64,000 bases of DNA from Verrucomicrobiota bacterium. GTDB taxonomy: Bacteria > Verrucomicrobiota > Kiritimatiellia > SS1-B-03-39 > UBA6053. The DNA lies in NCBI GenBank assembly GCA_020831625.1, contig JAFIGD010000023.1:1-64000 (forward strand), read 5' to 3'. Both the position numbers and the translations under genes were made by a program. Below the pieces are notes generated by a model. The model had not been told where the DNA came from, did not search any database, and saw only the letters and a program-made list of their open reading frames with translations. Position 1 is the stretch's first letter. Each line of letters opens with the position of its first letter. Below, piece after piece: positions 28,789 to 43,539 of the stretch.

Positions 28789-29475
28789 ATGAAGCTGTCC
28801 CCCCGCCCGTTTTGGGTGCTGATCGGCGGGTGCATTCTCGCCTTTCTCAGCACGGCCATGAATACCGGAATTGTGCTGACCCTCGGGACCTCTGTCTCTC
28901 AAATGAGCGGCGAGGTCTCCCGAATCGGTCGCAGCCTCCTGGACACCAGTCCCGACGGGTTAGCGGTCGGAATCGATTTAACCGTCGCCATTTTCGGTTT
29001 TCTCGGCGGGGCAATCCTCGCGGGCTTCACCATCCATCACCCGACGCTGGATCAGTCCATGCCCTACGGCCGCTGCCTGATGTTCATCGGCGGCTGTCTG
29101 TTACTGGCCCATCCGGTCTTAAGCCCTCTGCCCCGCCTCGCCCTCGGCCTGTGCGGCTTCGCCTCCGGCTTTCAGAACGCCATGGCCACCCACTACCGGG
29201 GCATCATTCTGCGAACCACCCACATCACCGGACTGGTCACCGATATCGGCAGCCACATCGGCATGGTCCTGAGAGGGCACACAATCGCCCCGTGGAAAAT
29301 CGTTGTGCCCTCTCTGGTGGTTCTTTGCTTCTTTCTGGGGGGCATTTTCGGCGCATGGCTAATCCTCTTCACACATGCTCCGTTCCTCCTTTGGATCGGC
29401 GGGATGTACATCCTCGGAGGCGGCGTCTGGTACTTCTTCCAGCGCATCGTCCTCAAATCCAAACCGGTTCATTAA
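28789..29475 (+). CDS. DUF1275 (YoaK-type) membrane protein
   Basis: The 228-residue protein has six predicted membrane helices and the family features GGCILAFLSTAMNTG near the start and GFASGFQNAMATHYRG in the middle, followed by RTTHITGLVTDIG. No biochemical function is established for the family; transporter-like roles have been suggested. It begins six bases after lemA and is probably in the same transcript. Confidence 0.85.
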   Translation: MKLSPRPFWVLIGGCILAFLSTAMNTGIVLTLGTSVSQMSGEVSRIGRSLLDTSPDGLAVGIDLTVAIFGFLGGAILAGFTIHHPTLDQSMPYGRCLMFIGGCLLLAHPVLSPLPRLALGLCGFASGFQNAMATHYRGIILRTTHITGLVTDIGSHIGMVLRGHTIAPWKIVVPSLVVLCFFLGGIFGAWLILFTHAPFLLWIGGMYILGGGVWYFFQRIVLKSKPVH

Positions 29476-30211: not shown

Positions 30212-31216
30212 ATGATTGACGATTTACTCACATTACGTACCCCAGCCGCCCGCATTTGGATTTTTTCAGATTTGCAACAGGTGATTCCCGATATGGCCGA
30301 GGGATGCCTCAACATCGCCCTGGAGGATATGCGCGAACTTGACCTCTCTCCATCCGCCATCTGGTATCTGGGGGACGCCATGGAGGGAAAAAATCCAGAA
30401 CGGGTCGCGGAAATGACCAAAATGCAGGTCAAAAAGCTCTCGGCGCTGAACCTGCCCCTCCGTTTTGTCATGGGGAATCACGATCTCGATCTGACCACCG
30501 CCCTTCCCGCCGGGTCCAAACCGGTGCTCCCGGTCTGGGAAGCCTTTCAAAACGTCCCCGGCTGGAAAACCACCCCCTCGTTTTCCGATTTTTACTTCAC
30601 CGACACCTACGGCGATGTTCTCGTTGTTTTTCTTTCCGACCACGTCGCTCCCGACAACCGCTGGATCGCCACCCAGCAGGAGGTCCGCGGCCCCGAACCG
30701 GACGCCTACGATATCCCCGCCTCCGCCTACCGCGAACTCCGCGAGTACATGGCCTCCTGGAACGGTCCGGTCATCCTCGCCGGACATTACGCCTTTCCCG
30801 GCGGCGCCCGCGGCGCGCCGCCCCACGGACTCCTCACCCGCCTCCTTCCCCTTCCCGACACCGTCAAACTCGCGCTCCACGGCCATGCCCACACCGGCGA
30901 CTGGCCCTACGGAAAAGCCCAAACCTTTCAGCGCATCGGCTGGATCGACTGGCACAAGATCCCTCAAATCAACGTCTCCTCCCTCGACCGCACCCGCGGC
31001 AGCCAGACCCGCTCCGTCATCCTCGACATCTATGACGACGGCACCCTCGGTCTTTTTTTTCGTGACCACGAGGACAAAATGTGGTCTGATAGCTTCCATA
31101 TTAACGCCCGCGCCCCCCGGACCCGTTCCGAGGCCAGCGTCCGGCACCATCATAAACACACCCGGCTTTCCGACAGTCCGCTGGCGGACTGGCAAAACCA
31201 ACACCCATCGCAATAG
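30212..31216 (+). CDS. Calcineurin-like metallophosphoesterase
   Basis: The 334-residue protein has the binuclear-metal motifs of the family: FSDLQQ (about 17-22, with Gln where the second ligand is usually His), LGDAMEG (52-58), GNHDLD (near 89-94), GHYAFPGG and HGHAHTG (about 230). It has no signal peptide and should be cytoplasmic. The substrate is unknown. No ribosome-binding sequence precedes the ATG. It is the first gene of a compact five-gene operon running to 39291; the next gene starts two bases after its stop. Confidence 0.8.
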   Translation: MIDDLLTLRTPAARIWIFSDLQQVIPDMAEGCLNIALEDMRELDLSPSAIWYLGDAMEGKNPERVAEMTKMQVKKLSALNLPLRFVMGNHDLDLTTALPAGSKPVLPVWEAFQNVPGWKTTPSFSDFYFTDTYGDVLVVFLSDHVAPDNRWIATQQEVRGPEPDAYDIPASAYRELREYMASWNGPVILAGHYAFPGGARGAPPHGLLTRLLPLPDTVKLALHGHAHTGDWPYGKAQTFQRIGWIDWHKIPQINVSSLDRTRGSQTRSVILDIYDDGTLGLFFRDHEDKMWSDSFHINARAPRTRSEASVRHHHKHTRLSDSPLADWQNQHPSQ

Positions 31217-31218
31217 AC

Positions 31219-33135
31219 ATGAAAAAATTCTTCACCGCATTATCCGTGTTCATCCGTGTTCATCCGCGGTTGAATTTCCCCGCGCATCTGAAAAACCCCC
31301 TCACCGCCGCCGCCCTCGCGCTGTGTGTATTCAGTCCCCCCGTCCGCGCGCTCATCAATCCCAATTTCACCCCCGTCCAGCTCATCGGACAGTCCACCGC
31401 CATTTGGGAGGCGGCCCTCACCCTGGATGAGGAGGCGTTCACCATCACTGCCGTCACCACCGACACCCTGAAAGGTGATGCTCTGGCCCAAAACGCTGTC
31501 CTTGACTTTTCCGACAATGACTGGCTTCTCTTCGATCTGCAGGAGGCCTTCACCGACAACACCGCCAAAGGCATCTTCATCACCGGCGACTTCAGCGGCG
31601 CCGCCATGGACGGCGGCGAGGTCGACGAACAACCCTGGGCCATGCTCAAGGTCGGCACCCAGTGGATCATGATCGCGTCCGGTGAAGACAAACCCTTTGT
31701 CATCCGCGAGGATCCCATCGACCTCTCCACCGTCTGGGCCGGCGACCCGGTCAACCTGCGGCAGGTGATTGACTATATCCTCACAGATCCGCGCGCCGCC
31801 GTTCCCGTCGCCTCCGGGGGCCGCTGGGCCTCCGAGGAAAAACTCTTCGACCTCGACGGCACCGTCCTCGGCCTCGAATCCGTCACCCTGGGGGACAAAC
31901 CTCTGGTCATGGTCTATCGCGCGGAAGGCGACCAGATCCTCGATCCGGCCAAAGAGTTTGAAGACATCACCGACACTCTCGAACTAGCCTCCGCCTCCGT
32001 CCACGCCGCCTGGGGCCGCTTTTTTGTCAGCTCCCATCCCTCCCTCGCGTCCATCACCCCGTCCGGCGAACTGGTCTTCTGGCGGCGCAGCGAAAAAACC
32101 TTTAAAGCCGTTCCCACCGGACAAACCTTCGAAAACGTCACCGGCATCGCCGCCGTGGCCGGTCCCGAAACCGCCATGCTGCTCATCGGCACCGCCGAAG
32201 GCACCGTCCTCGGACACCTGCGGGATCAAGAATGGCACACGCTCATGACCGCCGAAATCCACCCTGAAGCCGGCATCGGCGGACCGGTGCTGGCCATCGA
32301 CCTCAACGGAGACGGAAAACCCGAGCAGATTCAGGCCGGTGCCAACGGACTCCATCTTCTTGAAATCCCGGTCGGAAATCTGCCCCTCACCACTGCGGCG
32401 TCCACGGAGATCGTCAACCGCTTTATCCCCTACAGCGCCCCCGTCGGCACCCCGCTCAGCCTCACCCCCGCCGATCTCAGCGGCAACGGATTTCTTGATC
32501 TCCTCATCGGCGGCGAACGCGGCGCCGCGCTGGTCCTCAACGGAGGAAACCACACCTTCCGCGAAGCCCTCAAAAGCACCGGCGAACTCGCGTACAACAT
32601 CCGCCCCGGCATCCATCATGTCGGCGTGGGGGATCACGCCCTCGACGGACGCGTCGATCTCGTGCTCTTCAATCAACAACTTCCGCCACAAATTTATTTT
32701 AACCGCGGATTCGCCGTCTTCGGATACGACATGGAACTCGATCTGATCGAGGGCGCGCCGGACGCTCAAGACGCCGCCGGACGCGGTCAGCAGGCCGGCC
32801 TGCTCGCCGACCTCACCGGCAACGGTCTGCAGGAACTCCTCATGATCACCCATGACGGCGAAGTCTGGCTGCTCACCCGCGACGCCGAAGCCACAACCCC
32901 GCTCGGCGCCGCCCTCACCGCCCCGCCCGCGCTGTCCGGACCGGTTCCGGTCGTGATCCGCGACGGAAACCGCGTTCTCGGCGCGCGCATCCTCTCCCCC
33001 GGCGCTCCCGCGCAAATCGGACGCCGCAACCGCGGCCCCGTCACCCTCTCCTGGCGTCTGCCCGGGGAAACCGCCGACCGCGAACAGCGCCTGATACTTC
33101 TCCGTCAGGAGAACCACGTCCTCAGCGTGGATTAA
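31219..33135 (+). CDS. Secreted FG-GAP/VCBS-type beta-propeller protein
   Basis: The 638-residue protein has a signal peptide whose hydrophobic core starts only at about residue 31 (LTAAALALCVF), because the first 25 codons contain an ATCCGTGTTCATCCG dispersed repeat. The mature part has at least four calcium-type FG-GAP units: LAIDLNGDGKPE, PADLSGNGFLDLLIGG, DHALDGRVDLVL and LADLTGNGLQELLMI. Such propellers bind proteins or glycans outside the cell. It sits 21 bases before the membrane propeller gene, suggesting partners on the outer face of the membrane. Confidence 0.75.
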   Translation: MKKFFTALSVFIRVHPRLNFPAHLKNPLTAAALALCVFSPPVRALINPNFTPVQLIGQSTAIWEAALTLDEEAFTITAVTTDTLKGDALAQNAVLDFSDNDWLLFDLQEAFTDNTAKGIFITGDFSGAAMDGGEVDEQPWAMLKVGTQWIMIASGEDKPFVIREDPIDLSTVWAGDPVNLRQVIDYILTDPRAAVPVASGGRWASEEKLFDLDGTVLGLESVTLGDKPLVMVYRAEGDQILDPAKEFEDITDTLELASASVHAAWGRFFVSSHPSLASITPSGELVFWRRSEKTFKAVPTGQTFENVTGIAAVAGPETAMLLIGTAEGTVLGHLRDQEWHTLMTAEIHPEAGIGGPVLAIDLNGDGKPEQIQAGANGLHLLEIPVGNLPLTTAASTEIVNRFIPYSAPVGTPLSLTPADLSGNGFLDLLIGGERGAALVLNGGNHTFREALKSTGELAYNIRPGIHHVGVGDHALDGRVDLVLFNQQLPPQIYFNRGFAVFGYDMELDLIEGAPDAQDAAGRGQQAGLLADLTGNGLQELLMITHDGEVWLLTRDAEATTPLGAALTAPPALSGPVPVVIRDGNRVLGARILSPGAPAQIGRRNRGPVTLSWRLPGETADREQRLILLRQENHVLSVD

Positions 33136-33156
33136 TTCCCTTTTCGGAGATTTCCT

Positions 33157-35721
33157 ATGATCGACGGACTTTTCTTTCATCCCACCGGGGTGATCCCCGT
33201 GCTCATCAACCCCATCGCCGTGCTCCTCGCGGTGCTGCCGGGCATGTTCATGGCGCTCATTTCCCTCTTCAAACCCAAGTCCATCAAGACCGGCATCATC
33301 ATGCTCTGGCGGATGAAAGTTCAGGTCGCAATCCTCGCGCTTTTGGGCTACGGCCTCCACTTCGGATTCCGCACCGTGTTCCCCAAAACCGCCGCCACCG
33401 CCGCCGAAGCCGAGCAGGCCGTTGGCGAATGGGCCCACTTCCGGGGCGACGCGCTTCGCCGCGGCTGGGTCGAGGACGGAGCCTCCGATCCGGTCACCGG
33501 CGGCATCAACTGGTCCTTCCGTGAGGGCAATCAGGTCTTTGTGGCCTCCCCCGCTCTCGTTGGCAACCGCATCTACATCCCCTCCGTCACCATCGGCGCC
33601 TTTGGCGGCCTCAGCGGCTCCATTTACAGCCTTGATGCCGATACCGGCGCGCTGATCTGGCGGGTCACCCCGCCCAATTATGACGGTTCATTCTCCTCCG
33701 CCACCGTCAAAGGAAACTATCTGCTGGTTGGAGAAGGTCTTCATCTCACCAAAGATGCCCGCATGATCTGCATCGACATCTCCGACGAATCCAATCCGGA
33801 AATTCTTTGGATGTTCGAAACCCGGGACCATATTGAAGGCACCCCCACCATCGATGACGGCCGGGTGTTCTTCACCAACGGTAACTCGGGAATTTTCGGT
33901 CTCGATCTCCATACCGGCGAAAAACTCTGGCATCTCCCCGGCGAACAATTCAATGACGCGGAAACCTCAATTCTCGCCCACGAAGGCAAAGTCTACATCG
34001 GCCTCGGCTTCGGCCGTTACGGCCAGGCCATTGTGCAGGTCGACGCCGCCTCCGGCGAGGTCCTCCACCGCATCGAAACCCCCTATCCTGTTTTCGGCCC
34101 TCCCGCGGTGCACAACGGGGTCGTCTACTTCGGCATGGGCAACGGAGACTTCGTTTTCCCCGCCGAACAGCGCGTCGACTACGTTCTCGATATCCTCCGT
34201 GAGCAGGGACTCAGCGACGAGGAACTCCAAGCCCGCCGCCCCGGCCTCGCCCCCGGCGGCGCTGTATGGGCCCTGGACACCGAAACCATGGAAACCCTCT
34301 GGACATACGACACCGACCGCACCATTCTCTCCGCAGTAAGCATCACCGGGGACGGACTCTATTTCGCCTCCCGCAGCGGCGGCGTGTATCATCTTGATTT
34401 CGACGGAAGCCTCATCGCCTACTGGAACTCCGGCGAACCCGTCGTCTCCTCCATGAGCGTGACCGATGACCACGTCTACCTCATGACCTCCAACGGCATG
34501 TTGTATGTGCTCGACAGCGATGATCTGCAGCCCGTCTGGGACCTGCGCCTCAGCGGCGGCGCCATGAATTTCAGTTCCCCCGCCGTGGGCCGCGGACAGA
34601 TCTTTATCGGAACCGAAGCCGCCGGCCTTCTCTCCGTCGGCGAACCCGACGACGCGTCCCGGCTCACCCTCTGGAACGGTGACGGCGGCCCCCGCCGCGC
34701 CGGCCGCGCCGATGATGCCCCGCTCCCCGCCTTCGGCGCCTTTGAAAGCAATTATCCCGAATCCGCCATGGGCGAGGCCGGCGAATCCCTCACCTCCCAC
34801 ACCCCCGTGGCCGTCGACGGTGCCTATCTCCGCATCCTCAACGCGCCCGAACCCGTCATCGACGTCAGCGGACCCAGCCACACCTGGCGGCGGGTGCTGC
34901 CCGCGCCCGTCGAGGCGGTCGCGGTCCGCGGTAATGTGCTCGGCATTCACCTCCGCGGCGAATCCGACACCCTCGAACTCATGACCCTCAGCGACGGATC
35001 CCTCATCGCAGCACTGCCCCTGCCGCATCAGGCCCAATCCTTCCTCACCGCCACCGACGACGGATTTCTCGTCCGTCTGGATCCCGACACCCTTTCCCTC
35101 CTCGATGAAACCGGCGAAATCATTGAGAACCTCTCCGTGCCCGCCCTCAGCCACACACCCGTTCTCACCGTCAACACCCTTGTCGCCCTGCGCAACGAGG
35201 GACGTCAGCTCAGCGTGCTCGACCGCCCCACCGGCAAAGCCCTGTGGACCCGGAACCTGCCGGACAGCGCCACCGCCACCCCCATCCTGGACGGACAGCG
35301 GATTCTCGTTCCCGCCCGGGCCGGACTCCTGGCCTATGACATCGCCACCGGCGAAACCCCGGAACGCTGGAACGGGCCGCAAGACCCCGTCAGCGACTCC
35401 ATCGTCCTCGACCGCACCCTGCTCGCCCTCGTCACCGAAAGCGGCGAAGTGCTGCTGCTCGACCGCGCCACCGGCCGGGAACTCGCCCGCCATCCCGGTG
35501 CCCTGCCCGGCTTCCGCCCGCTCTTCCAGCGCGACCGCCTGCTCTGGGTCGGCCCCGCCGCCGTCCACGCCGTGCCGCTCGCCGCTCCGGGCACCCCGCC
35601 GGTGGAATGGGTCGACTTCTCCTGGATCGGCACCCCCACCACCGCCCCGCTGGCGCATCGGTCCCAACTCACCCTCGGACTCACCGACTGGGGCCTCGTC
35701 ACCTTCGGAGAGGAGCAATAA
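33157..35721 (+). CDS. Membrane-anchored PQQ-type beta-propeller protein
   Basis: The 854-residue protein has two N-terminal membrane helices (about 12-41 and 53-73) and then a large periplasmic region of about nine PQQ-like blades, each with a pattern such as SLDADTGALIWRV, GLDLHTGEKLWHL, ALDTETMETLWTY, VLDRPTGKALWTR and AYDIATGE. No quinoprotein active-site disulfide or Ca/PQQ ligands are evident, so it is probably a scaffold like BamB or EMC1 rather than a dehydrogenase. Its stop is one base from the dikinase gene. It shares an operon with an EMC3-like membrane protein. Confidence 0.82.
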   Translation: MIDGLFFHPTGVIPVLINPIAVLLAVLPGMFMALISLFKPKSIKTGIIMLWRMKVQVAILALLGYGLHFGFRTVFPKTAATAAEAEQAVGEWAHFRGDALRRGWVEDGASDPVTGGINWSFREGNQVFVASPALVGNRIYIPSVTIGAFGGLSGSIYSLDADTGALIWRVTPPNYDGSFSSATVKGNYLLVGEGLHLTKDARMICIDISDESNPEILWMFETRDHIEGTPTIDDGRVFFTNGNSGIFGLDLHTGEKLWHLPGEQFNDAETSILAHEGKVYIGLGFGRYGQAIVQVDAASGEVLHRIETPYPVFGPPAVHNGVVYFGMGNGDFVFPAEQRVDYVLDILREQGLSDEELQARRPGLAPGGAVWALDTETMETLWTYDTDRTILSAVSITGDGLYFASRSGGVYHLDFDGSLIAYWNSGEPVVSSMSVTDDHVYLMTSNGMLYVLDSDDLQPVWDLRLSGGAMNFSSPAVGRGQIFIGTEAAGLLSVGEPDDASRLTLWNGDGGPRRAGRADDAPLPAFGAFESNYPESAMGEAGESLTSHTPVAVDGAYLRILNAPEPVIDVSGPSHTWRRVLPAPVEAVAVRGNVLGIHLRGESDTLELMTLSDGSLIAALPLPHQAQSFLTATDDGFLVRLDPDTLSLLDETGEIIENLSVPALSHTPVLTVNTLVALRNEGRQLSVLDRPTGKALWTRNLPDSATATPILDGQRILVPARAGLLAYDIATGETPERWNGPQDPVSDSIVLDRTLLALVTESGEVLLLDRATGRELARHPGALPGFRPLFQRDRLLWVGPAAVHAVPLAAPGTPPVEWVDFSWIGTPTTAPLAHRSQLTLGLTDWGLVTFGEEQ

Positions 35722-35722
35722 C

Positions 35723-38467
35723 ATGAGCAAACAATGGATTTTCCCCTTTAACAGTCCGCCCGCCGGGGACACCCCCGCCCGCAAAAAACTCCTCGGGGGC
35801 AAAGGCGCCGGACTCAGCAACATGCTCTCCGCCGGCTTCACCGTCCCGCCCGGCTTCACCCTCTCCACTGAATGCTGCCGCTACTGGTATGAAAACGACA
35901 AACACTGGCCCGAAGGACTCGAAGAGCAGCTCGCAAGTGCATTGGCCGATCTGGAGCGCGCCACCGGACGCACCTTCGGCTCCGGCGGACAGCCCCTGCT
36001 CCTTTCCGTCCGCAGCGGTGCCGCCGTCTCCATGCCCGGCATGATGGACACCCTCCTCAACTGCGGCCTCCACCCCGGACTCGCCGAAGAGCTTCCCGAT
36101 CCCGAAGACTTCTGGAAACGCTACACCGAATTCATCCTCGCCTTCGCCGACACCGTCCACGGCATCGCCGAACACAAATGGCCCGAAGCCGGTTCCTCCG
36201 CCGCCAAATCCATCGCCCGCGCCCGCCTCGAACAGTTCGAATCCCTCACCGGAAAACCCTTCCCCACCAACCCCATGGACGCGCTCCGGGCCTGCATCAA
36301 CGCGGTCTTCGCCAGTTGGAACAGCGAACGCGCCAAAGCCTACCGCACCCATCACGGCCTCACCACCCTCGTCGGCACCGCCGTCAACGTCCAGGTCATG
36401 TGGCCCTCGCAGGTCTCCGGCATCGCCTTCACCCAGGACCCCAACGATGTCCACGCCGAACGCCTGGTCATCGAAGCCGCGTTCGGCCTCGGCGAAGCCG
36501 TCGTCTCCGGTGACGTCACCCCCGACCTCTTCCATCTGGACCGCGAAACCCGCGAAATCACCCGCGAAGACATCGGCCACAAACGCGATGTCTGCCCCGC
36601 CCTCGGCAATCCGCCGGTCACCGATCCCTCCGCGCCCAGTCTCAGCGCCGAACAACTCACCGAACTCGCCGACATCTGCCTCCGCCTCGAGAAATGGACC
36701 GGATATCCCCTCGACATCGAATGGGGACTCGTCGACGGACAATTCGCCCTCCTGCAGTCCCGTCCCATTCAGGGCCTCGAGGCCGCCAAACAGGTCGAAC
36801 CCCTCCGCCAGGCCGAAATCAAGCGCCTGCGCGATCTCGCCGGAAAAAACCGCCGCATCTGGGTCACCCACAACCTCGATGAAACCCTCCGCTTCCCCAC
36901 CCCCCTCACCTGGGATGTGGTCTCCCACTTCATGTCCGGCGCCGGCGGGTTCGGACTCCTCTATCAGAAACTCGGCTACCGCCCCTCCGCCGAAGTCTGC
37001 ACCCGCGGCTTTCTCGAACGCATCGGCGGACGCATCTATGCCGACCCCGAACGCCTCGCCGGCCTGTTCTTCGACGGACTCCCCATGCGCTACGATCTCG
37101 ACGCCGTCCTCAAAGACCGCACCGTGATGGATTCCGCTCCGGGCATTTTCGACCCCGCCGGCTCCGACGAACGCTTTCTCACCACCCTGCCCCGCAATCT
37201 CGCCGCCCTCCGGCGCACCGCGAAATCCATGAAACACGGACGGCAGACCGCCCACACCTGGTATCATCAAAACGTGCTCCCCGAGTTTGTCCGCTGGGTT
37301 GAAACCGCCCGGGCCAAAGATCTCAACGCCCTCGGCGACTGCGAACTGCTCGAAGAACTCGAACACCGCCGCATCCGCGTGCTCAACCGCTTCGCCCCCG
37401 AATCCCTCATGCCCGGCTTCTTCGGCGGCGCCGCGTACGGAGCCGTGCTCGGGCGCCTCACCGCCCTCATGGGCGCCGAAGAGGGCGGCAACCTCACCCG
37501 CATCCTCACCAGCGGCCTCGACAACGACACCACCATTGAACAGGACCAGCTCCTCCACGATGTCGCCGAAGGAAAAGCTTCAAAAGAATCCTTTATCCGC
37601 AAATACGGACACCGCTGCGTCGGCGAAATGGAACTCGCCAAACCGCGCTGGCGCGAAAACGCCACCTACATTGATCAGAGCATCGAACGCATCCTCGGCG
37701 GAAAAGGCGAAAGCCCCGAAATTATTCACAACCGCCAGCGGGAAAAACGGATCAAAGCCCAGCTTGCCCTCCCCGACACCCTCAAAGAATGGGGCGGCCT
37801 CAGCTTCCTCGAAGCAATTCAGGCCGATCTTCACGACGCCCAGACCCTCCTGCCCTGCCGCGAAAGCGGAAAGCACGCCCTCATGATGGGCTACGAACTG
37901 ATCCGCGATGTGCTCGAAATCTTCGCCCGCCGCTGGGAGCTCGGCGGCGATCTCTATTACCTCACCCTCAGCGAACTCCCGCGCTTCCAGGCCGAAAAAA
38001 CCGACATGCTTCAACGCATCCACGCCCGCAAAGTCGAACGCCAGGCCTGCCAGCGCCTCGATATGCCCGAAATCATTGACTCCGCGGATCTCGAAAGCCT
38101 CGGACTCGAACCCGACTACGGCGGCGACGAAAACATCCTCGCCGCCACCGCCGTCGCCCCCGGCATCGGCATCGGCACCGCCCACATCGTTTTCGACCCC
38201 TCCGAAGCCGGCGACATGCCCGACGACGCCGTGCTCGTCTGTCCCTCCACCGACCCCGCCTGGACGCCCCTGTTCATGCGGGCCAAGGCGCTGATCGTGG
38301 AGCGCGGCGGCGTCCTCTCCCACGGCGCCATCGTCGCCCGCAACCTCGGCATCCCCGCCGTGGTCTGCGCCGGAGCCACCAAACGCCTGAATCCCGGCGA
38401 CCGCATCCGCGTGGACGGTCAAAAAGGCACCATTCGAAAACTCAACGAAGAGGAGGTCTCCTCATGA
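35723..38467 (+). CDS. PEP-synthase/rifampicin-phosphotransferase-like dikinase without PEP-binding barrel
   Basis: The 914-residue protein has an N-terminal ATP-grasp domain of the pyruvate phosphate dikinase type (GGKGAGLSNM about 28-37; LSVRSGAAVSMPGMMDTLLN about 93-112), a helical middle region (about 360-830) and a C-terminal phosphohistidine domain with GGVLSHGAIVARN (His867). Only 47 residues follow this His, so the TIM-barrel that binds PEP/pyruvate in PPDK and PpsA is absent. The order equals that of Rph, which phosphorylates rifampicin with ATP. A phosphotransfer to an unknown acceptor is therefore likely. The start at 35723 follows AGGAG. Confidence 0.8.
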   Translation: MSKQWIFPFNSPPAGDTPARKKLLGGKGAGLSNMLSAGFTVPPGFTLSTECCRYWYENDKHWPEGLEEQLASALADLERATGRTFGSGGQPLLLSVRSGAAVSMPGMMDTLLNCGLHPGLAEELPDPEDFWKRYTEFILAFADTVHGIAEHKWPEAGSSAAKSIARARLEQFESLTGKPFPTNPMDALRACINAVFASWNSERAKAYRTHHGLTTLVGTAVNVQVMWPSQVSGIAFTQDPNDVHAERLVIEAAFGLGEAVVSGDVTPDLFHLDRETREITREDIGHKRDVCPALGNPPVTDPSAPSLSAEQLTELADICLRLEKWTGYPLDIEWGLVDGQFALLQSRPIQGLEAAKQVEPLRQAEIKRLRDLAGKNRRIWVTHNLDETLRFPTPLTWDVVSHFMSGAGGFGLLYQKLGYRPSAEVCTRGFLERIGGRIYADPERLAGLFFDGLPMRYDLDAVLKDRTVMDSAPGIFDPAGSDERFLTTLPRNLAALRRTAKSMKHGRQTAHTWYHQNVLPEFVRWVETARAKDLNALGDCELLEELEHRRIRVLNRFAPESLMPGFFGGAAYGAVLGRLTALMGAEEGGNLTRILTSGLDNDTTIEQDQLLHDVAEGKASKESFIRKYGHRCVGEMELAKPRWRENATYIDQSIERILGGKGESPEIIHNRQREKRIKAQLALPDTLKEWGGLSFLEAIQADLHDAQTLLPCRESGKHALMMGYELIRDVLEIFARRWELGGDLYYLTLSELPRFQAEKTDMLQRIHARKVERQACQRLDMPEIIDSADLESLGLEPDYGGDENILAATAVAPGIGIGTAHIVFDPSEAGDMPDDAVLVCPSTDPAWTPLFMRAKALIVERGGVLSHGAIVARNLGIPAVVCAGATKRLNPGDRIRVDGQKGTIRKLNEEEVSS

Positions 38468-39291
38468 TCGACCTGTGGAACAATTTCGCCCTCGCCCTCG
38501 TGGACATCCTCCTCGGCTGGCTCCTCCTCTTTCCCGTCAGCGTCGCCATCCTCGTTGTCTCCGTGGGGTCCGGAGCCATCCTCACCGTCGCCCGGAAATT
38601 CACCACCGACCAAACCAAACTCCGCATCGCCGCCGAGGACCGCAAACGCCAGAAAGAACTCGCCAAAGCGGCCAAGGCCCGGGGCGACAAAGAGGCCGCC
38701 AAACGCCATGCCGCCGTCCGCAACCAAATCAGCGTCATGACCCTCGGCCAGGAGGGCAAACCCCTCCTCGTCTCCCTGCTGCCCATCGCTCTGCTCGCCA
38801 CCTGGGCGGTCGAACGCCTCGAATTCCATCCGCCGAAAATCGACGAGGACGTCAGCATCATCAGCTACGTCCCCCGCCGCTTTGTGGGCCAAACCATGCA
38901 CATCGTTCCCGTCGACGGACTGGAGCCGCAAGGCACCTGGATCTCGACCATCGCCCCCGGCGAAATTATGGGCATCCCCTGCGGCGAAGCCCGCTGGACC
39001 TTCCGGGTCGCCGACCCCGAAGCCGCCGCGATTCAGGAATTCCCCCTTCAGGTGCGCATCGAGCGGGAAACCCTCGACACCGCCCTCCGCTTCGGCGCCA
39101 ACACCTACGCCTCCGCCCGGCGCTGGTTCCCGCAACATGAAATCCGCATCGACACCGATCTGCAGCAGGTCCGCCCCTTCGGCTTCGTGCCCGGCATCGA
39201 AGCCATCCTCTTCCCCCCCTGGCTCATCGCCTACATCCTCCTCGTCGTCCCCTCCGTCTTCGGCACCAAGAAACTCTTCGGAATCCACTGA
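38464..39291 (+). CDS. DUF106/EMC3/TMCO1-like membrane protein (Oxa1 superfamily candidate)
   Basis: The 275-residue protein has TM1 (about 12-42), a basic coiled coil (46-92, with repeated KRQKELAKAAKARGDKEAA-type sequence), TM2 after EGKPLLVSLLPI (99-117), an extracytoplasmic beta-rich domain (120-240) and TM3 (245-267). TM1, cytoplasmic coiled coil, TM2 and TM3 in this order, with the Lys-Pro at the start of TM2, recalls archaeal DUF106 and eukaryotic EMC3/TMCO1, membrane insertases related to YidC. The 120-residue insert between TM2 and TM3 is unusual. It overlaps the dikinase stop by four bases. The assignment is by eye. Confidence 0.6.
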   Translation: MIDLWNNFALALVDILLGWLLLFPVSVAILVVSVGSGAILTVARKFTTDQTKLRIAAEDRKRQKELAKAAKARGDKEAAKRHAAVRNQISVMTLGQEGKPLLVSLLPIALLATWAVERLEFHPPKIDEDVSIISYVPRRFVGQTMHIVPVDGLEPQGTWISTIAPGEIMGIPCGEARWTFRVADPEAAAIQEFPLQVRIERETLDTALRFGANTYASARRWFPQHEIRIDTDLQQVRPFGFVPGIEAILFPPWLIAYILLVVPSVFGTKKLFGIH

Positions 39292-40935: not shown

Positions 40936-41033
40936 TTTCCGAACCCCGGAATCTAAGGCCCTCACTTTTCCGAACTTCGGAAACACAAATTCCCCTCACC
41001 CTTACCCCTCGCCCCGCGTGGCATTCGTCACTC
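40936..41033. repeat. Second copy of the composite palindrome/CATTCGTCACTC repeat
   Basis: Inverted repeats TTTCCGAACCCCGGAA (40936-40951) and TTTCCGAACTTCGGAAA (40967-40983) again start 31 bases apart, and a single CATTCGTCACTC follows at 41022-41033, touching the stop codon of tamB. The arrangement and orientation match the copy at 23417. Confidence 0.75.
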
Positions 41034-43539
41034 AATAATCCCACCGCCACCGCAGGCCGATGCCGGAATCCGAGTCGGTTCCGGTCTGGGTTTCCAGCCG
41101 CAGGGTCGGGGTCAGCTCCACCTCCACCCGCGCCCGCCCGCTTTCGGCCTCCGCGCCCCGCTCCAGCTCGACATACATCCGGTCGCCGACATGACGCCCC
41201 ACCGCCACCCGGGTCTGCCCCTGCTGCTCATCGTCGCTGCGAATCTCGATTTGATCCACCTGCAGCATTCTTCGCGTGGTGCCCATCACATCAAAGGCGC
41301 TTCCGCCCCCGCGCAGGGAATGCACCGCCCGCGCCAGGGTCAGCGCCTGCCAGGGGGTGATCCGCGCAGATTCACGTCCAAAGAGCAGTCTCGCCAGAAT
41401 TTCGTCCTCCGGCAGGGGCGGCGTGGAATCCAGTTCAAACTCGGGCGCCCCCGCGGGCCCCGACACCTGCAACATGCCCAGAATCCCGCCCGACCGCAAT
41501 TCGGCCAGCACATCCAGCGTCGGATCCGGCGGAAACGCGCCGTCAAACATCACCCGTCCCCGGGTAATCACCAGACGTTTTCCAAAAAACAGGAAGCGGC
41601 CGCGCAGAATGGCCAACTCCCCGGTCAAAACCGGTTCCGTCACTTCGCCCCGCATCCTGAGCCGCGCGGACCACTCGGAATCCAGCCCGCGGCCGCGCAC
41701 AAAAATCCGGTCCGGAGAGTCCAGGCTGAGGTCCAGTTCCACCCGGTGACGCGGCGGACGCGCTTCCGGTTCGGGCTCCTCCTCACCCCGCCCGTCCTCA
41801 AACCGTTCCGTCACCTCAATCGTTCGCACCGTGTGCGGCATTCGTTCCGGAATCCGGATTTCAACCGGGCGCAGCGCCAGTTGTCCCTCCATCCGGCTGG
41901 ATTTCGCTCCCCCGGACCAGCGGAGGGTTCCATTCACCACCGCGTCAAGTTCATCCTGGCGCACGGCCTGGAATTCCCGCAGCGTCAATTCCGCCGAAAA
42001 CGACATCTCGCGGCCCGGCTCCATCAGCACTTCGCCGTCCATCATCAACCGGCCGTCGCGTCCGTCTCTCGCGTGAAAATGCTCCAGCCGCAACAGCCCC
42101 CGGTCCGCGGAGAGGGCGAACTCCGGTTCCCGCAAATGAAATCCGGTCAGTTCATGCTCATACGCCCCCTCCACCACCCGGGCCCCGCCCTGAAGCCGCG
42201 GCTCCCCGAGGGTGCCGTCGAGCCGGAAATCCACATCCAGTCTGCCGCTGAGCCGATGAAACACATCCAGCACGAACAGGCGCGACAGGCCGGCCAGATC
42301 CGTGGAGGAGGTCAACGATCCGTTCAGTGACTCATCCTCGGGGAACGATAAGGCGAAGGGTTGCAGCGCCAACCGGACGGGCGCATCCAGATCGAGAACC
42401 ACCGGGTCGCCCGGCAGATCCTCAATGCGAATGTTCAAGGTGCCGCGCCCCCCGCCCAGACCGGCCTTCACCCGGAGCGCGGCCGGCGGACCTTCCCATA
42501 GGTCCGGGTCCTGCGGCTTGAGTCCGCTGAAATCCATCCGCAGGACCACTTCAGGCTCCGCCAGGGTTCCGTTGACCTCCAGCCGACCCTCCAACGCGGC
42601 TCCGGGATCGGTCACCCCGACCAGACCGAGAACGTCCAGAGGAAACGCCACAATTCCCACCCCGATCCGGACCGAATCTCCCGAAACGCTCCCTTCAAAA
42701 AGCAGACGGCCCTCTCCGATCCGAATCGCGGTTTCACTCAGCACCAGCGCCGCGTCCGTGCGCTCAAGGGTTAGCGGATTTTCAAGCGACAGATCGCGGT
42801 CAAACGCCTCCGCGTCCAGACGTGAAACCTCCACCCGGAATCCCCCGGCAATGTTCGACAGTTCCGCCAGTCCGTTTAAGGAGACTTCTCCGCTCTTCAC
42901 CGTCAGGTCCGCCTGCAAGACCTGGTCCTGATCAAAGGTCTCCCGCCGCAGCACCCTCAACCGGGCTTCAATACGCGAAAAGAACTCCGCCTCTGCTCCC
43001 GCCGTAAGATCCAGAATGCCGTCCACAAACCGGCCGCTGAGCCTGGCGGACACCGGCTCATCGCGGGCGGGAGGCAGAATGCGGATATCGGGCAGCGAGA
43101 TGACTTCGACTGTCACCCGCTCAAACAGCGCCTTGAGATCCGGAAACGGACAGGCCGTCCCCGGATCCTCCGGTTCCGCAGACGCCCCGTTCTCCGATGG
43201 CCATCCCGAAAACGCCACTGAATCCGCCCGGAGATCATACACGTGCAGATTGCGGCCCAGCAGACGCCGGGAGGACACCCGGGTGAAAAATCCGTTCACC
43301 GCCAGACCGGTCTCCTCCTCGCCGGTCAATTCCAGCGACTCAAATTTCAATCCCAGCGGATGCACCCACCGCAGTCCCTTGATCCGCGCCTCCATGCCCG
43401 TGGCCCCGCTGAGCTGACGGTTCAGCCAGGGAGTGACAAATTCCATGCCCGCCGGACTGATCAGCAGCCAAACGCCAACCACAACCGCGAGAGCCGTGGC
43501 GAAGATCAGGCCGCCAGTGATTTTAAGAAATTTTTTCAT
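41032..43539 (-). CDS. tamB: TamB-like inner-membrane/periplasmic AsmA-superfamily protein
   Basis: TamB forms a long beta-taco groove spanning the periplasm and is implicated in phospholipid transport and in assembly of some autotransporters with TamA. The 835-residue protein has an N-terminal signal-anchor (about 6-28) and ends in the DUF490 domain (about 600-835) with GRFLFFGKRLVITRGRVMF and LFGRESARITPWQALTLA typical of TamB. It is shorter than the 1,250-residue E. coli protein. Its ATG overlaps the last base of the tamA stop, so the pair is translated together. Confidence 0.88.
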   Translation of the reverse strand: MKKFLKITGGLIFATALAVVVGVWLLISPAGMEFVTPWLNRQLSGATGMEARIKGLRWVHPLGLKFESLELTGEEETGLAVNGFFTRVSSRRLLGRNLHVYDLRADSVAFSGWPSENGASAEPEDPGTACPFPDLKALFERVTVEVISLPDIRILPPARDEPVSARLSGRFVDGILDLTAGAEAEFFSRIEARLRVLRRETFDQDQVLQADLTVKSGEVSLNGLAELSNIAGGFRVEVSRLDAEAFDRDLSLENPLTLERTDAALVLSETAIRIGEGRLLFEGSVSGDSVRIGVGIVAFPLDVLGLVGVTDPGAALEGRLEVNGTLAEPEVVLRMDFSGLKPQDPDLWEGPPAALRVKAGLGGGRGTLNIRIEDLPGDPVVLDLDAPVRLALQPFALSFPEDESLNGSLTSSTDLAGLSRLFVLDVFHRLSGRLDVDFRLDGTLGEPRLQGGARVVEGAYEHELTGFHLREPEFALSADRGLLRLEHFHARDGRDGRLMMDGEVLMEPGREMSFSAELTLREFQAVRQDELDAVVNGTLRWSGGAKSSRMEGQLALRPVEIRIPERMPHTVRTIEVTERFEDGRGEEEPEPEARPPRHRVELDLSLDSPDRIFVRGRGLDSEWSARLRMRGEVTEPVLTGELAILRGRFLFFGKRLVITRGRVMFDGAFPPDPTLDVLAELRSGGILGMLQVSGPAGAPEFELDSTPPLPEDEILARLLFGRESARITPWQALTLARAVHSLRGGGSAFDVMGTTRRMLQVDQIEIRSDDEQQGQTRVAVGRHVGDRMYVELERGAEAESGRARVEVELTPTLRLETQTGTDSDSGIGLRWRWDY

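Follow-up and report, generated by a model that had tools for sequence, protein, structure and literature searches.

The window analyzed here, a stretch of 64,000 nucleotides at its full length, comes from a PVC-group genome assembled from metagenomic data (contig G000:C26). It carries five plus-strand open reading frames (ORFs) that follow each other with gaps of 2, 21, 1, and −4 bases; these ORFs and their Pfam matches bear out the gene number, strand, spacing, and family assignments of the original prediction. A scan for promoters and terminators within the five-gene unit found none of note, its results lying at or below the chance level. The genes and the features within them are as follows:

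30212..31216, plus strand: calcineurin-like metallophosphoesterase, 334 aa (Pfam Metallophos, E 2.2e-10)
31219..33135, plus strand: secreted FG-GAP protein, 638 aa, with a signal peptide followed by a conserved INPxFTP motif (Pfam FG-GAP_3, E 2.2e-12, and FG-GAP)
33157..35721, plus strand: PQQ/BamB-type beta-propeller protein, 854 aa, with two N-terminal hydrophobic segments at approximately residues 10-72 (Pfam PQQ_2, E 1.4e-45)
33742..33963, plus strand: conserved polar cluster H196, H225, E227, D267, E269 of the propeller, a putative metal or active site (alignment of both forms, unfused and fused)
35723..38467, plus strand: RPH-type dikinase, 914 aa, with ATP-grasp, middle substrate, and C-terminal phospho-histidine swivel domains (Pfam PPDK_N and PEP-utilizers)
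37859..37864, plus strand: R713-E714 of the dikinase, aligned with the catalytic R666-E667 of RPH-Lm and invariant in 23 sequences
38321..38323, plus strand: H867, the predicted phosphoryl-carrying histidine, in the motif GGVLSHGA (invariant in 23 sequences and aligned with the His825 region of RPH-Lm)
38464..39291, plus strand: EMC3/archaeal-YidC-like membrane protein, 275 aa (PF01956, E 2.9e-6)
38536..38820, plus strand: predicted TM1 (residues 25-47), cytosolic helical hairpin (50-95), and TM2 (98-119) of the EMC3-like protein (AF2 model and PF01956 alignment)
38851..39159, plus strand: beta domain between TM2 and TM3 (residues 130-232), predicted to be periplasmic (AF2; also found in the AlkP-linked relatives described below)
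39217..39279, plus strand: predicted TM3 (residues 252-272), which opens with a conserved PPW..Y (AF2; P252, W253, and Y257 are invariant)

The region is flanked by genes for a DUF1275 membrane protein (28789-29475, plus strand) and a TamB-like envelope protein (41032-43539, minus strand), neither of which shows any sign of membership in the system.

A scan of a GTDB-based genome collection with a 7-relative alignment yielded 26 loci, to which whole-genome searches added more. The hosts of the cassette belong to Planctomycetota and Verrucomicrobiota (in the NCBI sense, Kiritimatiellota and Lentisphaerota as well). According to profile searches of all loci, the dikinase gene lies immediately 5′ of the EMC3-like gene in 33 of 33 unfused loci, the window included, and the PQQ gene lies immediately 5′ of the dikinase gene in all 30 unfused loci that can be assessed (the contigs of the other 3 stop within the dikinase gene). 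The order PQQ propeller-dikinase-EMC3-like protein is kept across two phyla, down to ∼30% identity, and such clustering at 33 loci is evidently not a product of chance. A homologous secreted FG-GAP protein adjoins the cassette in the window and at 12 further loci outside its genus, mostly upstream and, in L026 and L035, downstream. In two congeneric genomes (G001 and G002), the metallophosphoesterase gene is followed by the FG-GAP and PQQ genes, in the same placement as in the window; the remaining 8 genomes of the family contained no homolog of this enzyme, and none matched at any cassette locus outside the genus. The proposed conservation of the five-gene order in PVC relatives therefore holds for the PQQ-dikinase-EMC3 core and fails for the metallophosphoesterase, which is an operon member in the window's genus only and was rejected as a core part. 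Beyond the four remaining genes, no conserved flanking genes were seen, except for secreted proteins at some loci. The cassette is patchily distributed (present in 7 of 58 relatives) and rare in the phylum (∼3% of 388 genomes). In the dikinase tree, loci of different phyla are intermixed, the pattern that an accessory unit would leave if it were passed on en bloc, by descent or by transfer, and the distance correlations (r of 0.86 for the dikinase versus the EMC3-like protein and 0.92 for the dikinase versus the PQQ propeller), which are confounded by phylogeny, agree with joint inheritance. Judged by gene order, the PQQ propeller, dikinase, EMC3-like protein, and FG-GAP protein form a conserved four-part system.

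The predicted mature N terminus of the FG-GAP proteins (window 31219-33135, L112:1194-3164, and L039:15730-17445) opens with a conserved (A)xINPxFTP/INPALQP motif. In L022, L023, L026, L029, L035, L038, and L040, the neighbors of the cassette include genes for large secreted proteins that are homologous to each other and may resemble glycoside hydrolases.

In ten genomes (L088 and L111 to L119), the dikinase and a divergent EMC3-like protein form a single ORF of ∼1180 to 1290 codons. The window's own genome carries such a fused copy (G000:C73, L111:6685-10347); there, a PQQ gene and a 1220-aa dikinase::EMC3 gene (together L111:4913-10347) make up a system that is only a distant relative of the window copy. 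The PQQ gene lies immediately 5′ of the fusion in all ten cases, and an FG-GAP gene is found near it in six of them. All ten fusions have an extra hydrophobic stretch between the phospho-histidine domain and the EMC3-like part, such as RNRFLLIWAVFFAAYYALP in L111. Oxa1-type proteins begin on the outer side of the membrane, and a cytosolic dikinase can be fused in front of one only by way of one additional membrane span. The presence of the extra helix in every fusion thus lends independent support to both the N-out topology and a functional tie between the two proteins. The functional coupling of the dikinase, in ten genomes covalent, to a predicted membrane protein of the archaeal/EMC3-type Oxa1 superfamily is well supported by sequence.

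Members of the Oxa1 superfamily (YidC, EMC3, TMCO1, and GET1) are described as protein insertases, and the PF01956 branch of the superfamily as archaeal and eukaryotic (PMC8675477, PMC8887752). The 38464 protein, which was predicted to be EMC3-like, scores 27.6 bits with the Pfam EMC3_TMCO1 model (PF01956), barely over the cut-off of 27.1, and 23 of 26 family members match this model, which in 14 control genomes matched archaea only. The best PDB match of the family profile is the archaeal YidC-like protein MJ0480 (5c8j), with an E value of 1.7e-4 for the whole protein; for a profile of the transmembrane core, with the beta domain removed, the E value improves to 3.3e-6, and no other chain is matched at E < 1. 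An AlphaFold (AF2) model based on 26 natural sequences (pLDDT 91, pTM 0.78; a model from 7 sequences was poor, pLDDT 71) has helices at residues 2-22, 25-47, 50-72, 76-95, 98-119, and 252-272, in the order N-terminal helix, TM1, cytosolic hairpin, TM2, beta domain, and TM3. The invariant residues mostly sit at the membrane borders, with R44 inside and W114/R118 and P252-Y257 outside, rather than in an obvious central groove. Foldseek searches of the PDB with both AF2 models returned nothing significant; with the 26-sequence model there was no match at E ≤ 0.001, and most hits were to unrelated and Ig-like beta domains. The method probably copes poorly with a protein made of short helices and a detached beta domain. 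The assignment to the Oxa1 fold was thus sustained by PF01956, the MJ0480 profile match, and the predicted topology, while the structural search gave no significant match; by these profiles and this topology, and not by superposition, the protein is taken to be a true Oxa1-superfamily relative of the archaeal/EMC3 type. It shares with EMC3/TMCO1 and MJ0480 the order of N-terminal helix, TM1, cytosolic hairpin, TM2, and TM3, in addition to the profile matches. Unlike these archaeal and eukaryotic proteins, it is bacterial, has a beta domain of ∼100 residues between TM2 and TM3 in place of their short peripheral helix, and has a dikinase as its genetic neighbor or fusion partner. With bacterial YidC it would have the superfamily fold in common, but YidC carries a transmembrane hairpin in the position of the beta domain. 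A canonical YidC is encoded separately in the window's genome, and an origin of the EMC3-like protein from bacterial YidC was rejected, as its core gave no profile match to that family (hhalign probability of 0.4%). The PF01956 model also gives hits, generally weak, in ordinary bacterial YidC proteins of this phylum (L047, L048, L051, L052, L054, and L064, two of them above the cut-off), which makes annotation by PF01956 alone unsafe.

Relatives of the EMC3-like protein occur in other gene contexts. At eleven loci (L087 and L120 to L129), the gene of such a relative comes after two genes for type I phosphodiesterases (AlkP), of which each locus shows one or both; at 4 of these loci, a sulfotransferase gene is nearby. 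The AlkP-linked relatives show no EMC3_TMCO1 match in Pfam, and their membership in the family is by profile-profile comparison with the cassette family (probability 99.3%, E 3.9e-20), with which they share the beta domain. The AlkP pair and the EMC3-like gene apparently constitute another undescribed operon type. One AlkP of the pair bears the membrane motif AYxGPGAGFA (L087, L120 to L129). At a single locus (L089:5389-10168), an EMC3-like gene lies between two arylsulfotransferase (ASST) beta-propeller genes and a gene for a cytosolic-type sulfotransferase, which overlaps it by 4 bases. This arrangement parallels that of the cassette, unlike which it uses sulfuryl rather than phosphoryl chemistry. 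The common theme of these contexts is phosphate- and sulfate-ester chemistry, not translation or secretion, and such neighbors point to group-transfer chemistry as the probable setting of the family.

The domain order of the dikinase is RPH-like, with PPDK_N at residues 61-362 and PEP-utilizers at residues 833-902 of 914. It has in common with RPH and the HpeHI/PpsAB-type dikinases the ATP-grasp, substrate, and C-terminal swivel histidine domains; unlike RPH and HpeHI, it has a PPDK-like N-terminal part and is obligately linked, genetically or by fusion, to a membrane protein. Its best PDB relatives are PPDK for the N-terminal part and rifampin phosphotransferase (5fbs) for the middle and C-terminal parts; the middle domain is too divergent to point to rifampin or a phenolic as the substrate, and the NCBIfam RPH and PEP-synthase cut-offs are not reached. 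Residues K27, R97, E333, Q345, R347, and H867 are invariant in 23 dikinase sequences, and K27, R97, E333, R713/E714, and H867 correspond to Lys22, Arg117, Glu297, Arg666/Glu667, and His825 of RPH, respectively. The Arg666-Glu667 pair of RPH-Lm is required for the second phosphotransfer (PMC4844700), and known RPH-type dikinases phosphorylate hydroxyls of small molecules, such as rifampin and phenolics (PMC4844700, PMC12167813). Every RPH catalytic residue that was tested is kept, and for this reason the dikinase is very likely to be catalytically active.

The propeller belongs with BamB and other PQQ-fold propellers by repeat family and sequence. It differs from BamB in having two N-terminal hydrophobic segments, conserved in unfused and fused systems, instead of a lipoprotein anchor, in carrying an invariant His/Glu/Asp cluster, and, in unfused systems, in its greater length. 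The cluster residues H196, H225, E227, and D267 are present in 29 of 29 sequences and E269 in 27 of 29, across two propeller groups, unfused and fused, with a mutual identity of only ∼25 to 30%; the repeat pattern would place them in loops of one propeller face. Scores with curated NCBIfam models fall far short of the cut-offs for PQQ-dependent dehydrogenases (40 bits versus 480 for TIGR03075 and 15.7 versus 833 for PQQ_membr_DH) and below that for the BamB equivalog (95.5 bits versus 285), so that neither identity was accepted. The propeller had also been described as EMC1-like, a claim that did not survive closer comparison: the Beta-prop_EMC1_N match (E 0.0013) is under the cut-off, compared with 1.4e-45 for PQQ_2, and no EMC1 chains are among the 60 best PDB matches. 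What remains in common with EMC1 is the predicted placement of a propeller on the far side of the membrane beside an EMC3-type subunit; in contrast to EMC1, the propeller has no specific sequence match to that family, is anchored N-terminally rather than C-terminally, and belongs to a unit with a kinase. No small three-TM gene that could encode an EMC6-type partner was seen in the cassette.

Taken together, the gene set points to an undescribed, probably non-insertase use of an ancient membrane fold. Our preferred but tentative reading, with a probability of roughly 0.4, sees the core unit as a phosphotransfer machine tethered to the membrane; its Oxa1-type module would link the cytosolic dikinase to the periplasmic propeller and pass or present a phosphorylated species. 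By homology, the dikinase would move the beta-phosphate of ATP via H867 onto a hydroxyl group, carried by a small molecule or by a lipid head group on the cytosolic side of the membrane; we infer both this substrate and the direction of the transfer. The EMC3-like protein, an Oxa1-type three-helix bundle with a periplasmic beta domain, would then pass or present the product across the inner membrane, where the anchored propeller would use, transfer, or cleave it by means of the H196/H225/E227/D267 cluster, with the secreted FG-GAP protein as a putative acceptor, ligand, or partner. Passage through the EMC3-like protein itself is conjectural, the invariant residues being mostly those that border the membrane; lipid scrambling by insertase-fold proteins has been described (PMC10491306). 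The dikinase could equally power uptake or simply be anchored. Export or outer-face modification is ranked first because it alone accounts for the AlkP and sulfotransferase/ASST parallels, the latter of which comes from a single locus. EMC3-like relatives would play the same role with other phosphate- and sulfate-ester enzymes. With the odds somewhat further against it, the EMC3-like proteins as a whole may constitute an undescribed bacterial Oxa1 family with a periplasmic beta domain, serving not as an insertase but as the membrane part of group-transfer machines, with a phospho- or sulfotransferase as its cytosolic partner and a propeller or phosphodiesterase as its periplasmic one (in dikinase/PQQ, sulfotransferase/ASST, and AlkP/AlkP versions).

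Homology to the Oxa1 superfamily, which extends to the charged cytosolic helical hairpin and the known members of which are described as insertases (PMC8675477, PMC8887752), would favor an insertion or assembly machine, in which the EMC3-like protein inserts membrane segments, such as those that anchor its partner propeller, with the dikinase as power source or regulator; the membrane-anchored or secreted nature of the partner proteins fits this as well. Such a machine nevertheless seems unlikely, given the canonical YidC already present in the genome, the rarity and patchiness of the system, the phosphate- and sulfate-ester enzymes that adjoin the relatives, and the lack of a detectable relationship between the PQQ and AlkP anchors (hhalign E 0.087 for PQQ versus AlkP1, which gave no grounds for a shared origin). 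Moreover, its obligate partner is a dikinase of the small-molecule type, and it is to this dikinase that the strongest coupling, gene fusion, is directed. No insertase known to us works by phospho-histidine transfer.

Two other explanations were considered. In phosphorylation-coupled uptake, by analogy with the PTS and HpeHI, a compound from outside would be bound or processed by the propeller and the FG-GAP protein and admitted by the EMC3-like protein, after which the dikinase would trap it in the cytosol by phosphorylation. HpeHI, an RPH homolog, is thought to trap scavenged phenolics in this way (PMC12167813), the dikinase is tethered at the membrane, and some loci adjoin genes for secreted, possibly carbohydrate-active proteins; however, neither an outer-membrane receptor nor a catabolic pathway is conserved beside the cassette, and the AlkP and sulfotransferase/ASST contexts are left unexplained, so that uptake, too, is considered improbable. 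The combination of extracytoplasmic binding domains with a cytosolic kinase, and the covalent dikinase::EMC3 fusion, would also suit envelope sensing, with the propeller and the FG-GAP protein detecting a ligand and the EMC3-like protein relaying this to the dikinase, whose product would be a phosphorylated signal or a phosphorylated protein. The unit has no conserved regulator or transcription factor, and the characterized RPH-type middle domains act on small molecules; sensing is regarded as a rather distant contender.

The open-access literature yielded no earlier account of such a system (subscription papers were outside the scope), in agreement with the original prediction; what is new is the gene composition and the coupling, each part being from a known family. 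A bacterial PF01956-type branch that differs from the known ones in the element joining helices 4 and 5, a third kind, and that occurs as a fusion with an ATP-dependent phosphotransferase would be a case of the fold being used for a different task. This would bear on whether the insertase groove serves polypeptides only or lipids and small molecules as well, a question for which the ten fusions offer single-polypeptide constructs.

Just 3′ of the cassette, the window carries a gene for a FAD-dependent oxidoreductase (PF12831; 39569-40921). Such a gene also occurs at L013:1146-2486 and, in the congeneric genome G002, beside the EMC3-like gene, and FAD-oxidoreductase-like stretches come after the fused systems in L112 and L113.
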